From a virus: a stretch of 46,621 nt of DNA. This document shows positions 528 through 46,621 of the stretch, piece after piece; position 1 is the stretch's first letter; each line of letters begins with the position of its first letter. The DNA lies in IMG/VR virus record IMGVR_UViG_3300044713_000028, positions 1 to 46,621 of that record; one strand, written 5' to 3'. The position numbers and the translations under genes were made by a program. The notes under the pieces were generated by a model. The model ran no database searches. It saw only the letters and a program-made list of their open reading frames with translations, and was not told where the DNA came from.

Positions 528-547
528 TGGCGCCAGCGTGATACAAT
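518..547 (+). promoter_or_regulatory. Sigma70-like extended -10 promoter for the replication operon
   Basis: TAGACT at 518-523, an 18-nt spacer and TACAAT at 542-547, with TG one base upstream (539-540), giving TGnTACAAT. The 17-bp core at 538-554 recurs exactly on the minus strand at 15815-15831 upstream of an HNH gene, which supports it as a functional element. Expected start of transcription is near 554, immediately before the leader hairpins. Confidence 0.65.
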
Positions 548-554
548 AGCTTTT

Positions 555-645
555 GATCGGCTGGCCGGCCGATCTTGGAATGCCGGGAACCACGGAGGGA
601 TGCTCCTTACATCCCTCCAACCCGGCGAAGTCCTTAAGGGGGACT
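555..645 (+). promoter_or_regulatory. Structured 5' leader that can mask its own ribosome binding site
   Basis: Three hairpins follow the predicted transcription start. Hairpin 1 is GATCGGC/GCCGATC (555-561 with 568-574). Hairpin 2 has an outer stem GCCGGG/CCCGGC (582-587 with 621-626) and an inner perfect 9-bp stem (594-602 with 610-618) closed by the loop CTCCTTA (603-609). Hairpin 3, AGTCC/GGACT (629-633 with 641-645), encloses the Shine-Dalgarno AAGGGGG (636-642). The loop CTCCTTA equals the 3' end of 16S rRNA and can pair with TAAGGGG at 635-641. There is no U-run, so it is not a terminator. It may control translation of 648-1513. Confidence 0.55.
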
Positions 646-647
646 AG

Positions 648-680
648 ATGACACTTCACCGACAAACACGACTCCAGTGA
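648..680 (+). CDS. Possible 10-aa leader peptide
   Basis: ATG at 648 lies 5 nt after a strong AAGGGGG. It is followed by nine codons (MTLHRQTRLQ) and a TGA that overlaps the GTG start of the replication gene (GTGA). The GTG itself has no good ribosome binding site, so translation of the replication protein may depend on reading this short frame. Too short to judge by composition; inferred from signals only. Confidence 0.4.
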   Translation: MTLHRQTRLQ

Positions 681-5711: not shown

Positions 5712-6034
5712 ACCAGAGAGAGCTATTGCCAGCGCATTGCAGAGTTAAATTTCGTGGGAAGGCCTACTGGTACAATGAGTCGGCCGCTAACCTGGGAGCG
5801 AAACTGTCGCCTCTCTCACACTTCGATGCGGACGGAAACTTCCAAGAAGGGAACGCGATAGCTGATGGATTACTCTACTACGCAGTCATCAAGGATGGGG
5901 AAATTAAGCGGTTCGGAAAGGTCATAGGGAACGCGATAGCTGATGGATTACTCTGCTACGCAGTCATCAAGGATGGGGAAATTAAGCGGTTCGGAAAGGT
6001 CATAGGCAGCGTCTGCGAACTGGAGCGCTTATGA
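5708..6034 (+). CDS. Hypothetical protein with internal 26-aa tandem duplication
   Basis: 108 aa from the ATG at 5708 (ATGA overlap). Residues 48-73 (starting GNAIADGLL) are repeated at 74-99 with a single Tyr-to-Cys change. The unit is a short beta-rich segment ending KRFGKVI. No family recognised. The duplication keeps the frame, and the downstream overlap with the next gene is intact, so the gene appears functional. Confidence 0.6.
   Translation: MNQRELLPAHCRVKFRGKAYWYNESAANLGAKLSPLSHFDADGNFQEGNAIADGLLYYAVIKDGEIKRFGKVIGNAIADGLLCYAVIKDGEIKRFGKVIGSVCELERL
5849..6004 (+). repeat. Perfectly in-frame 78-bp tandem duplication
   Basis: Copies 5849-5926 and 5927-6004 differ by one base (A to G in the tenth codon). 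77 of 78 bases are identical, including synonymous positions, so the duplication is recent. Confidence 0.95.
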
Positions 6035-11008: not shown

Positions 11009-12945
11009 ACCGCATTCGCGCGTGGCTCTCAAAACGGCTTGGCATTGATGATCTTCAGCGATCCGCCCAGCAGCAATTCCTAGATTTACAGCGCCGCAAT
11101 GAAATTCTGCAAGATGAAAACCGCGCGCTACTCCTGCGTGACCGCGAAGACGAAGGCAGGCAGCGGGCAATGGAAGAGCGCGCGGAATACGCCGAGGCGC
11201 TGTCAATGTACGGCGCTGGCCCTTGGCAGCCTACCGGCGTGGCAGTGAACGAGGCCGGAAAGATCGAGGGCGGCGGGGTTGCACTGAAGGAGAGGTACTG
11301 GGAACTTGAATTGGCGCTTGAAGATCGCGGCTGGCAGCGTCAACTGGCGATGGCTCAAACCGAGTTCAGCCGCTATGGAATCCAACAGATTATCCTGATT
11401 TCCCGACTGTATTTCATCAAAAACCCGCTGGTTCGCCGCGGCGTGGAGTTGTGCGCTGATTACGTGTTTGGCCGCGGAATGCAGATCACTTCTGACGACG
11501 AAGACGCAAATACCTGCATTGAACAGTTCATGGAGGCGAATCAAAAACAGTTGGGCGTCACCGCGCTTCTGCAAAAGGAGCGCACTTTGAAAACAGACGG
11601 GAACCTATTCTGGGCACTGTTCACGGATCAAGCTACAGGCATGGTGATGGTGCAGACCATCGACGCCGCCGAGGTCGAGGACGTTATCACCGACCCAGAC
11701 AACTCCGATGTGGAGTGGTTCGTCAAGCGGCGCTGGATTCAGGCTGTGTTTGATCCTGAAACGGGAGCCACGCAGCAAATCTCCAAGGTGTGCTGGTACG
11801 TGGCGCTGGGATATGAGACGAACGCGACGGCATTCGGCCCGCAGCAGGAGCCGGTTATGCGCGTGGCTGGTGAGCCGGTGTACGTGTACCACCGCAAGGT
11901 GGGCGGCATCGAAAAGTGGCGCTTTGGCTGCCCTGAAGTCTACCCGATGATCGATTGGGTGCGCGCCTACAAGCACTACCTTGAGGACTGGTGCACGATC
12001 CAGCGGGCATTCGCGCGCTTCTCGTGGGATGTGAAGACCAAAGGGGGCGCCGGCGCGATAGCGAACCTCAAGAATGCGCTGGCGACTACTCTGGCAAACG
12101 GCGGTACGTGGTGGGAACAGAACCCGGCACCAAATACCGGTTCTCCGTGGATTAGCGGCCCGGGAACGACGCTGCAGCCGTTCAAGACACCGCAGAACAA
12201 CCCGGAGGCTTCCCGGCGCGTGGCAATGATGGCGTGTTCGGCAATCGGGCTACCCGAAACGATGCTCTTGGGCGATGCCACCACGGGCAGTCTGGCGACC
12301 GCGGTATCACTCGACCGGCCCACGGAATTGAAATTCACACAGCGGCAGGAACTCTGGCGGCAGGATCTAAAGGTGATCGTGGGATATGCGCTTGAACGTT
12401 CGCTGATGGCTCCTAAGGGCAAACTGCGAGAAGCGCTAAAAGCAAAGGGGAAATCGCCCGACACAAAGACTGCGGCGGATGGTGCGCAGGCCGTGCGCGT
12501 TACCTTCCCTGCCGTCCTGGAGCACGATGTGACCGCGCGCGTGGCGGCCATCGCGGAAGCGCTAACCCTCAACGGATTCGAGGCTACCGGCATTGACCAG
12601 CGCGTCGGTATCAAGCTGCTGTTGGAAGAACTCGGTGTGGACGATGCACAGAGCGTCATCGAGGCCATGTTCCCCGAAGATCAGTACGATGAACTGGTGG
12701 ACCGTACACCGCTGTTGAAGGCCGAGAATGAGCAGGCCATCGAACAGGCCAAGAATCCGCCGCAGCCGGGCATGGAAGGACCGACCGGCGCACCGTCGCA
12801 AGGGCCAATGCCCCGCAAGCCGCACGCGCAGAAGCTAAACGCGCAGCCGCCCAGCCCGTCGAAGGCCAGCGAGGCGGCGATAAACCGGGCGGTCGTGGCG
12901 CTAAAGAAAGCGCTGGAATCGCGGAGGGTTAATGGGCACGCCTGA
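11005..12945 (+). CDS. Portal protein
   Basis: 646 aa, ATG coupled. N-terminal charged helices (about 10-70), then the portal core: FSRYGIQQIILISRLYFIKNP, a GRGMQI motif, and a clip/stem region around YKHYLEDWCTIQRAFARFSW. The C-terminal ~50 residues are Pro/Gln/Lys-rich. Forms the dodecameric ring at the capsid vertex through which DNA passes. Position upstream of the head morphogenesis gene agrees. Confidence 0.85.
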   Translation: MNRIRAWLSKRLGIDDLQRSAQQQFLDLQRRNEILQDENRALLLRDREDEGRQRAMEERAEYAEALSMYGAGPWQPTGVAVNEAGKIEGGGVALKERYWELELALEDRGWQRQLAMAQTEFSRYGIQQIILISRLYFIKNPLVRRGVELCADYVFGRGMQITSDDEDANTCIEQFMEANQKQLGVTALLQKERTLKTDGNLFWALFTDQATGMVMVQTIDAAEVEDVITDPDNSDVEWFVKRRWIQAVFDPETGATQQISKVCWYVALGYETNATAFGPQQEPVMRVAGEPVYVYHRKVGGIEKWRFGCPEVYPMIDWVRAYKHYLEDWCTIQRAFARFSWDVKTKGGAGAIANLKNALATTLANGGTWWEQNPAPNTGSPWISGPGTTLQPFKTPQNNPEASRRVAMMACSAIGLPETMLLGDATTGSLATAVSLDRPTELKFTQRQELWRQDLKVIVGYALERSLMAPKGKLREALKAKGKSPDTKTAADGAQAVRVTFPAVLEHDVTARVAAIAEALTLNGFEATGIDQRVGIKLLLEELGVDDAQSVIEAMFPEDQYDELVDRTPLLKAENEQAIEQAKNPPQPGMEGPTGAPSQGPMPRKPHAQKLNAQPPSPSKASEAAINRAVVALKKALESRRVNGHA

Positions 12946-41006: not shown

Positions 41007-41299
41007 GCGCATCTAAACGGAAGTACGTTATCGTAAGAACCTATTCGGCGGGGTGTTTCGCCGGATTCCTGGAAAGCAGGAAGGGTAAGGAGGTGGTGCT
41101 AAAAGGCGCGCGCCGATTGTGGTATTGGGCGGGGGCGGCTTCGCTTTCGCAGCTTGCCCAGTCAGGCACCAGCAAGCCTGCGGAGTGCAAGTTTCCAGAG
41201 CCGGTTTCGAGGATCACGCTAACTGAGGCCATTGAGATTCTGGACGCGACCGGAGTAGCGCAAAAATCCATCCAAGGTGTAGCGGTATGGCGCGCGTAG
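41003..41299 (+). CDS. DUF6948-like protein (98 aa)
   Basis: ATGA-coupled. YVIVRTYSAGCFAGFLESRKGKEV, ARRLWYWAGAASLSQLA and IEILDATGVAQKSIQGVAVWRA match a small phage family I know as DUF6948, often followed by Gly-rich repeats. Function unknown. Confidence 0.75.
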   Translation: MSASKRKYVIVRTYSAGCFAGFLESRKGKEVVLKGARRLWYWAGAASLSQLAQSGTSKPAECKFPEPVSRITLTEAIEILDATGVAQKSIQGVAVWRA

Positions 41300-41436
41300 G
41301 CTACGGCGACGGCTCCGGCTCCGGCGACGGCTCCGGCTACGGCTCCGGCTCCGGCTCCGGCTACGGCTCCGGCTACGGCTCCGGCTCCGGCTCCGGCTCC
41401 GGCTACGGCTCCAGCTACGGCTACGGGAAGGGATAA
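41287..41436 (+). CDS. Gly-Ser/Gly-Tyr repeat peptide (49 aa)
   Basis: ATG 41287 overlaps the end of the previous gene. After MARV almost every residue is Gly, Ser, Tyr or Asp in GS, GY and GD dipeptides (about 20 units). Low-complexity, likely flexible or phase-separating. Similar tails are common next to or on DUF6948-like proteins. Confidence 0.6.
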   Translation: MARVGYGDGSGSGDGSGYGSGSGSGYGSGYGSGSGSGSGYGSSYGYGKG

Positions 41437-45041: not shown

Positions 45042-45199
45042 CCCACCTCCACGATCCCCTGGACGCCGCGCTGTGCTGCATGCCCACAGTCGAGATTGAA
45101 GCATTCCGCGATACCGTGCGCCGCTGGCTGACCGGCTATGAACGCCAGCGGCTACTGGATGCAATAGCAGACGTGCTGCGCAGAAGGGAGGCGGCATGA
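45038..45199 (+). CDS. Small helical protein (53 aa)
   Basis: ATGA-coupled on both sides. VEIEAFRDTVRRWLTGYERQ is a charged amphipathic helix. No family recognised. Confidence 0.5.
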   Translation: MTHLHDPLDAALCCMPTVEIEAFRDTVRRWLTGYERQRLLDAIADVLRRREAA

Positions 45200-45654
45200 A
45201 CATACTAAGCCGATTGTTCGGTACACCTGAAGAGATAAATGGCGCGAACCGCTGCCCGACGTATCTCTACCGCTGGACCATTTGGAAATGGCGTGGGCGC
45301 GGGCTGTACGTGCATAACTTTGTCGGCGACGATTGGTCGCTCGATCTTCACGATCACCCGAAGCGATTCGTGAGTATTGGTTTGCGCGGCCGTTACGTTG
45401 AACTGACGCCCGATCCAAAGGGAGGCACGAAAACCAGGACCTTCACGGCTCCGTGGTTCAGAACCTTCCCGGCTGAACATATCCATAGGATACGGATGGT
45501 GCGCGGCTGGCTCGGGGAAATCGAGGACTGCTGGACGCTGGTGCTTGTTTTGAGGCCCGTGCGATCCTGGGGCTTCTGGCATATTGGCCGGTTCATCCCG
45601 TGGCGCGAATACGTTAACAGCGAGACTGCCGATAAAATGAAGGCATGCGAATGA
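45196..45654 (+). CDS. Cupin-like protein (152 aa)
   Basis: LDLHDHPKRF at 49-58 (His52, His54) and AEHIHRI at 93-99 (His95, His97) form the metal-binding set of a cupin barrel. Beta-strand-rich throughout. Could be a small metal-dependent enzyme or sugar-binding protein; substrate unknown. Confidence 0.65.
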   Translation: MNILSRLFGTPEEINGANRCPTYLYRWTIWKWRGRGLYVHNFVGDDWSLDLHDHPKRFVSIGLRGRYVELTPDPKGGTKTRTFTAPWFRTFPAEHIHRIRMVRGWLGEIEDCWTLVLVLRPVRSWGFWHIGRFIPWREYVNSETADKMKACE

Positions 45655-45839: not shown

Positions 45840-46175
45840 ATGGATACAGAAGCAGCCCCAGTACTTAGTTTGTACAATGTCTGCCGTGGCGCGGCGGATG
45901 AGATTTTTAAGCGGGAAGTGAATCTTGTCATTGATAATATCATTGACGTGAATACTGACCAAGACCAGAAGCGTAGCATCCTGATGGAGTTCATCTTCAG
46001 CCCGATGAAAGACCGGAGCGGAGCGGCCGTTTCGTTGAAGGTTCGCAGCAAATTGGCTGGCGTTGAGCCGGTCGATGGCACAATGTTCCTGACCCGCCGC
46101 TCAGGTGAGGTGGTCGCAGTCCCATACGACCCGCGACAGGAAGAGTTATTCGCAGAAATTAAGGAGAAGAAATGA
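45840..46175 (+). CDS. Replication-terminator-like protein (111 aa)
   Basis: ATG 45840 after AAAAGGAGATG. LVIDNIIDVNTDQDQKRSI then FSPMKDRSGAAVSLKVRSKL follow phage proteins annotated as replication terminator proteins, usually next to DUF2303, as here. Function unproven. Confidence 0.65.
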   Translation: MDTEAAPVLSLYNVCRGAADEIFKREVNLVIDNIIDVNTDQDQKRSILMEFIFSPMKDRSGAAVSLKVRSKLAGVEPVDGTMFLTRRSGEVVAVPYDPRQEELFAEIKEKK

Positions 46176-46621
46176 TCGCAGAAGCAATCAACAAGCTAAT
46201 CGCGCTGGCCGCGCCAAATGTGAGTGAGCACGCAGCCATCGAGTACACCGACAAATCCCTCACTCCGATTGCGCCTCCACTTGCCGCCACGGCTACTACG
46301 GCGACGTTGACCGGGTTTGCGGACGTGGTTAACGCCTTGGGTCTTTCTACCGGGCTTCTGCTGGTTAAGTCTCCCGTCGAGGTTATCGCCGAAGATATCA
46401 GCACCGACAAGTATGGACGCCGGCAGATCTGGGCCAGTGCGTCACACGACGGCCCGCAATTCAAGTTCGGCGTGTTCATGAACCCAGAGGAGTTCGCCAT
46501 TGGCCTGCGCTCTAAGTTCGTCGTTTCGGATTCGGTGGTTGACGATCTGGACTACGTGCTGAAGATGGCTGCGAACGTGGGTGCGGGTGCCGTGGCTACT
46601 GCGGAAGATGACGGCATGAGC
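46172..46621 (+). CDS. DUF2303-like protein, N-terminal part (runs off the window)
   Basis: 150 codons from ATG 46172 (ATGA overlap), open to the last base. Contains EVIAEDISTDKYGRRQIWASA and FNPEEF-like (VFMNPEEFA) segments of the DUF2303 family and ends EDDGMS. The C-terminal part is at 1-219, in frame. Compared with family members I recall, the region between the EDDG and the TFxEV segments seems short by roughly 15-20 residues, so a few dozen bases may be missing at the join. Confidence 0.8.
   Translation, partial: MIAEAINKLIALAAPNVSEHAAIEYTDKSLTPIAPPLAATATTATLTGFADVVNALGLSTGLLLVKSPVEVIAEDISTDKYGRRQIWASASHDGPQFKFGVFMNPEEFAIGLRSKFVVSDSVVDDLDYVLKMAANVGAGAVATAEDDGMS

Follow-up and report, generated by a model that had tools for sequence, protein, structure and literature searches.

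A putative repressive leader RNA with a loop complementary to its own Shine-Dalgarno sequence ahead of a phage replication gene

The leader and its replication gene

In the window, by which is meant the whole 46,621-nucleotide stretch of viral DNA that was analysed, a replication initiation gene (rep) is preceded by a promoter-like site, three hairpins and two short overlapping frames. These features, all of which lie on the + strand, are the following:

518-547, +: promoter-like site TAGACT-18-TACAAT with TG before the -10, sigma-70-like (1 found against 0.1 expected from shuffles)
about 553-555, +: expected transcript start, placed from the promoter-like site at 518-547
555-574, +: hairpin 1, GATCGGCTGGCCGGCCGATC, where the transcript presumably begins
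582-626, +: hairpin 2, two-tier, from folding
582-587/621-626, +: lower stem of hairpin 2, GCCGGG/CCCGGC
between the lower and upper stems, +: asymmetric 6x2 internal loop (hinge) of hairpin 2
594-602/610-618, +: upper stem of hairpin 2, a perfect 9 bp, GGAGGGATG/CATCCCTCC
603-609, +: apical loop of hairpin 2, CTCCTTA, complement of the downstream Shine-Dalgarno (SD) sequence
629-645, +: hairpin 3, AGTCC-TTAAGGG-GGACT, whose loop or upper stem contains the SD, from folding
635-642, +: SD TAAGGGGG of the 10-codon frame and target of loop 2, from duplex energies
580-651, +: possible upstream frame of 24 codons including the stop, with an ATGA overlap with ATG 648, from direct reading
648-680, +: 10-codon leader frame, MTLHRQTRLQ and stop, whose TGA (678-680) overlaps the rep start (GTGA), from direct reading
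677-1513, +: replication initiation gene, PHROG 9474 (E 4e-20), with a GTG start and no SD

An earlier note on this DNA had placed here a promoter, a second hairpin whose loop CTCCTTA can pair with TAAGGGG of its own SD, a further hairpin enclosing that SD, and a 10-codon frame overlapping the GTG of rep. Each of these elements is recovered. A sigma-70-like site is present, and its coordinates are refined to 518-547; loop 603-609 can form 7 bp, including one G-U, with 635-641 (duplex energies of -6.6 to -8.1 kcal/mol); the SD lies within hairpin 3, where folding gives G640-C644 a pairing probability of about 1; and the short frame runs from ATG 648 to the TGA at 678-680, over GTG 677. RNA folding, proposed in the same note as a check, places the leader 4.1 s.d. 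better than shuffles (-60.5 kcal/mol, against -44.7 +/- 3.8 in 200 shuffles; z -4.1). Ten perfect hairpins of at least 8 bp with loops of 4-10 are present in the window (both strands), and among these only hairpin 2 has CTCCTTA in its loop.

From the perspective of translation, the two possible starts are very different. The SD of the 10-codon frame forms a duplex of -11.2 kcal/mol with the anti-SD, whereas the 20 bases before GTG 677 contain essentially no SD (-0.3 kcal/mol), which makes coupling of the 10-codon frame to rep very plausible from the sequence. Ribosome entry at ATG 648, followed by re-initiation at GTG 677, would be the likely route. The assignment of GTG 677 as the rep start is backed by alignment, as the relatives begin there (M(A)KRGT..HPK). 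The frame at 580-651, whose translation would be hypothetical, has a weak SD context. The gene product is called a replication protein after its PHROG annotation; its structure model, of low confidence (pLDDT 64.7), gave no significant match in the PDB.

Other traits of the window were recorded alongside. One gene (PHROG 1029) is apparently split between the two ends of the record (46174-46621 and 1-219), which suggests that the window represents an almost entire genome, circular or permuted, that probably lacks only a few bases. A protein similar to PHROG 4786 (annotated as cysteine dioxygenase) is encoded at 45196-45654, among early genes; a 78-bp direct tandem duplication, 98% identical, lies at 5848-6006; and about 21 copies of the 6-base repeat GGCTCC (41299-41426) encode a glycine-rich stretch.

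Leaders of related replication genes

Scans with the exact hairpins and with single proteins found no close relatives, and relatives of Rep were reached by aligning the window protein with two cyanophage Rep proteins, which led to 47 viral loci. Three of them are near full-length independent matches, and all three match PHROG 9474: L210 (residues 1-255 of the window Rep, 40%), L211 (residues 1-242, 36%) and L226 (residues 1-268, 29%). The leaders of L212 and L213 are identical to that of L211 and were counted with it as one independent leader. L210 and L211 are metagenome phages in which no homologue of the window portal was found, and the leader therefore appears as a module common to otherwise different phages. 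In both, the same order is found just before the ATG of rep: a promoter-like site, hairpin 1, a hinged hairpin 2 and an SD-bearing hairpin 3. The promoter-like site directly precedes hairpin 1 in L211 (TTGAAT-17-TAAAAT), and that of L210, also before hairpin 1, is TTGAAT-17-TACACT (8/12, below the cut-off of the scan). The equivalent hairpins are located as follows:

L210 2395-2434 and L211 2409-2435: equivalents of hairpin 1, with different letters
L210 2439-2481 and L211 2439-2481: equivalents of hairpin 2, with the same plan

In these two leaders, hairpin 2 is again made of a lower stem, an internal loop, an upper stem and an apical loop, and hairpin 3 is small, with the SD in its loop. Loop 2 of L211 can also close into a smaller loop of 4 nt. 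The loop-SD pair is CTCCTTA/TAAGGGG in the window, GCCTCAT/ATGAGGC in L210 and TCTCCAGA/TCTGGAGG in L211; as RNA, the L210 pair (GCCUCAU/AUGAGGC) has 7 Watson-Crick pairs and that of L211 (UCUCCAGA/UCUGGAGG) has 8 bp, with CUCCAGA/UCUGGAG as its 7-pair core. Across the three leaders, all 21 cells of the 7-pair core can pair, 20 of them as Watson-Crick pairs, and both sides have changed at six of the seven positions. Changes on both sides are also found in hairpin 1 (6/7), in the upper stem of hairpin 2 (6/7) and in hairpin 3 (3/4), although all these counts lean towards structure, since they use structural blocks set by hand, the MAFFT alignment of the leaders having failed to register the loops. 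The covariation that the earlier note had asked for in related phages is thus present, as loop-SD pairs maintained with compensatory changes in L210 and L211.

The pairing is specific to each leader: each loop scores 6.5-7.5 against its own SD region, versus 3.5-4.5 against the SDs of the other two. A score of at least 6.5 was reached at 19 of 536 SD-bearing phage gene starts, a background of about 3%, and these 19 include L210, L211 and L226. A combined descriptor, in which loop-SD pairing leads into a hairpin before the start, occurs at 12 places in 4.4 Mb versus 13 in the reversed sequence, and one of its matches falls precisely ahead of rep in each of the window, L210 and L211.

The full plan is seen in these three independent leaders, all from metagenome records, and a loop-SD leader ahead of a PHROG 9474 Rep is found only in part in L226, where a 7-bp match (GCCCTCC/GGAGGGC) involves a hairpin about 110 nt upstream, there is no SD hairpin and the layout differs. 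Loop-SD pairing is mostly at background in the remaining Rep loci, whose match is confined to the N-terminal domain. Scores of 6 and 7 were obtained for L214 and L230 (attained in 2 and 5 of 100 shuffles, respectively), in both cases from a hairpin a long way upstream of the start. L214 and L217 carry a different, stem-closed (P1-closed) element some 230 nt ahead of position 2501; both copies contain AGCATCCTTCC(T/C)CGCTC, and Rfam has no match to the element. The rep genes that follow it lack an SD.

L014 shares only the C-terminal domain of Rep, and scans with alignments of that domain returned it again and nothing else; its loop match is of 6 bp (CCCTTG/CAAGGG). The hairpin-1 loop CTGGCCGG, common to the window and L014, was considered as a family signature and set aside. 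The scan for this pattern returned mostly a coding motif of tail genes, with L014 as the sole RNA-like case, so the letters of hairpin 1 are not diagnostic.

A possible brake on Rep synthesis

The earlier note had described the loop as an anti-SD mimic. Its letters, CTCCTTA, do equal the canonical tail of bacterial 16S rRNA, but the loops of the orthologues (GCCUCAU and CUCCAGA) differ from that tail. Identity with the 16S tail and pairing with the SD are one observation rather than two, since any strong SD is complementary to that tail, and the 16S resemblance in the window follows from this. To judge from the three sequences, the loop is kept complementary to the hairpin that holds its own SD, and is not primarily a copy of 16S. 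The TAAGGAG at 46160-46166, the SD of the gene at 46174, can also pair perfectly with loop 603-609 over 7 bp; it could be a target in trans and is also simply a canonical SD.

RNA-level control of rep entry is supported by the recurrence of the anatomy and of the loop-SD pairing, with compensatory changes, before two full-length orthologues. This part of the translational switch proposed earlier stands, but the SD is hidden in both structures and nothing points to a signal or ligand, so that repression, rather than switching, is the simplest reading. The coupled leader peptide of the same proposal fares similarly: coupling is plausible in the window, but the 10-codon peptide is found there only; in L210 and L211 nothing corresponds to it and the SD hairpin belongs to the rep start itself, which places the peptide outside the shared design.

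The leader is probably a real brake on the synthesis of the replication protein, and we consider it fairly probable that it does so as a repressive RNA for the initiator, through loop-SD pairing and hairpin 3, with coupling. Transcription would start at hairpin 1, and hairpin 2 would then offer a 7-nt loop complementary to the SD that hairpin 3 presents. Pairing of loop and SD, on top of hairpin 3, would deny the site to the 30S subunit and keep Rep synthesis low; in the window phage, a ribosome ending the 10-codon frame would re-initiate at the overlapping GTG of rep. The pairing may take place within one transcript, as a pseudoknot or as kissing hairpins, or between transcripts. Within one molecule, the linker of 0-3 nt would strain a 7-bp kiss unless hairpin 2 bends, for which its internal loop could act as a hinge, whereas a kiss between two transcripts is sterically unrestrained. 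In the latter case, repression would be expected to rise with the number of phage genomes. Against this repressive reading, hairpin 3 alone already hides the SD, and most of the Rep relatives that match only the N-terminal domain have nothing of the leader plan.

If hairpin 3 alone mattered, as an ordinary SD-sequestering hairpin, the complementarity of loop 2 would be a by-product of its anti-SD-like letters, a view helped by the ability of hairpin 3 to hide the SD by itself and by the partial fit of a 7-nt anti-SD-like loop to most SDs. It is made rather unlikely by the loops of L210 and L211, which differ from the 16S tail and yet fit their own SDs over 7-8 bp, far above their fit to the other two and with a chance of about 3% per leader. 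A leader of the C4 or CI type, acting in trans, as a whole or as a cut piece, on other copies of the message and providing immunity or copy-number control, is also rather unlikely. Its self-complementary layout in the leader of a replication operon is like that of P1 C4-icd-ant and P4 CI, as far as these are described in PMC8198154 and PMC4825925, its 7-nt loops suit intermolecular kissing, and L014 combines a sub-threshold int-alpA-like RNA with a 6-bp match of loop to CAAGGG. However, no terminator-like site that could release a small RNA was found at 400-800 of the window or in the leaders of L210 and L211, and the leader does not match C4. Lysogenic immunity is not indicated either, since the window, L210 and L211 yielded neither a tyrosine integrase nor a serine recombinase.

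A switch driven by a leader peptide, as in plasmid RepY-RepZ, would require that translation of 580-651 or 648-680 remodels the RNA and permits translation of rep. The overlapping short frames, with their ATGA and GTGA junctions, and the GTG of rep without an SD would suit such a switch, but L210 and L211 have no such frames, the SD in their hairpin being that of rep itself, and the loop pairing masks the SD rather than activating it; this possibility is accordingly rated as improbable. Least of all would the palindromic repeats adjoining the replication gene be a feature of the DNA (inverted repeats bound by Rep or by a repressor, or a replication origin): every helix lies between promoter and start, the partner of the loop is always the SD, and the letters change while the pairing holds, which makes this reading very unlikely.

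Returning to repression by loop-SD pairing, the leaders of L210 and L211, with the same layout and different loop letters, are new in this analysis. A bolder extension, put forward tentatively and with considerable doubt, is that they represent an undescribed family of phage leaders, in which kissing hairpins on the sense strand let transcripts repress one another, providing genome-dosage control of Rep with no countertranscript in phages apparently devoid of an integrase. If the repressive reading is true, environmental phages brake their replication initiator by means of an RNA aimed at its own ribosome-binding site, whose letters are free to vary provided that both partners change together, and the logic of plasmid copy-number RNAs and of C4/CI phage immunity RNAs would be linked to uncultured phages. 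The three natural loop-SD pairs make specificity, and action in cis versus in trans, directly testable.

Comparison with known systems

No Rfam family matches the window leader. In P1 and P7, the message begins with C4, a structured RNA that is complementary to a downstream region of the operon containing the SD of a leading frame, and translation of this frame is coupled to that of the next gene. Like C4-icd-ant (RF01695), the window leader is an RNA complementary to a downstream SD region with a probably coupled frame, and the complementarity to the SD of a frame on the same transcript is found at 603-609 with 635-641 (7 bp). Unlike C4, which controls an antirepressor, it precedes a replication gene, its stem plan differs and there is no evidence of processing; the RF01695 covariance model found nothing in the window record (E <= 1) or in 520-720 (E <= 10). 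Antisense leaders of this kind are represented by P1 C4-icd-ant and P4 CI (Citron and Schuster 1990 and studies of P4, both by way of PMC8198154 and PMC4825925). The CI RNA of P4 lies in the leader of the replication operon, and the sites with which it pairs are on the same transcript (PMC4825925). The window leader is likewise self-complementary and ahead of phage replication genes, but CI causes premature termination of transcription via seqA and seqC, whereas in the window one downstream partner was found, which is the SD itself.

In the IsrK-orf45-anrP system of Gifsy-1, the leader traps its own message in an inactive fold, and a short frame is followed by a coupled gene (PMC4825925). The window shares the leader RNA, the short frame and the probably coupled downstream gene. 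In contrast, IsrK has its own terminator, and its short RNA activates in trans; no such terminator between a small RNA and the coupled frames is present at 400-800 of the window.

Within int-alpA (RF02996), the consensus has two hairpins, and its CCuUua loop might pair with uaAgGG further downstream, a resemblance taken as a lead only. The window gave no match at E up to 10 and has no closing stem P1; the exact pattern of the int-alpA core found nothing in viral contigs, and a match in L208 was discarded when cmscan did not reproduce it. The likeness concerns L014, where an int-alpA-like RNA (11397-11512; 28.4 bits, below the gathering threshold of 35.8) lies upstream of a gene sharing the C-terminal domain of Rep. 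This element stands directly before a DUF1376 primosomal gene, which is the one whose C-terminal domain matches the window Rep, and the record of L014 carries a tyrosine integrase.

Finally, leader peptides control replication in plasmids, as in tap-repA/CopA of R1 and in repY-repZ of ColIb-P9 with its pseudoknot (papers cited in PMC10724649). As these are cited there, they rely on a countertranscript and the RepZ pseudoknot activates, whereas the window shows no sign of a countertranscript and its pairing masks the SD; what the phage leader has in common with both is a short frame, probably coupled here, ahead of a replication initiator and pairing by a loop of the leader.
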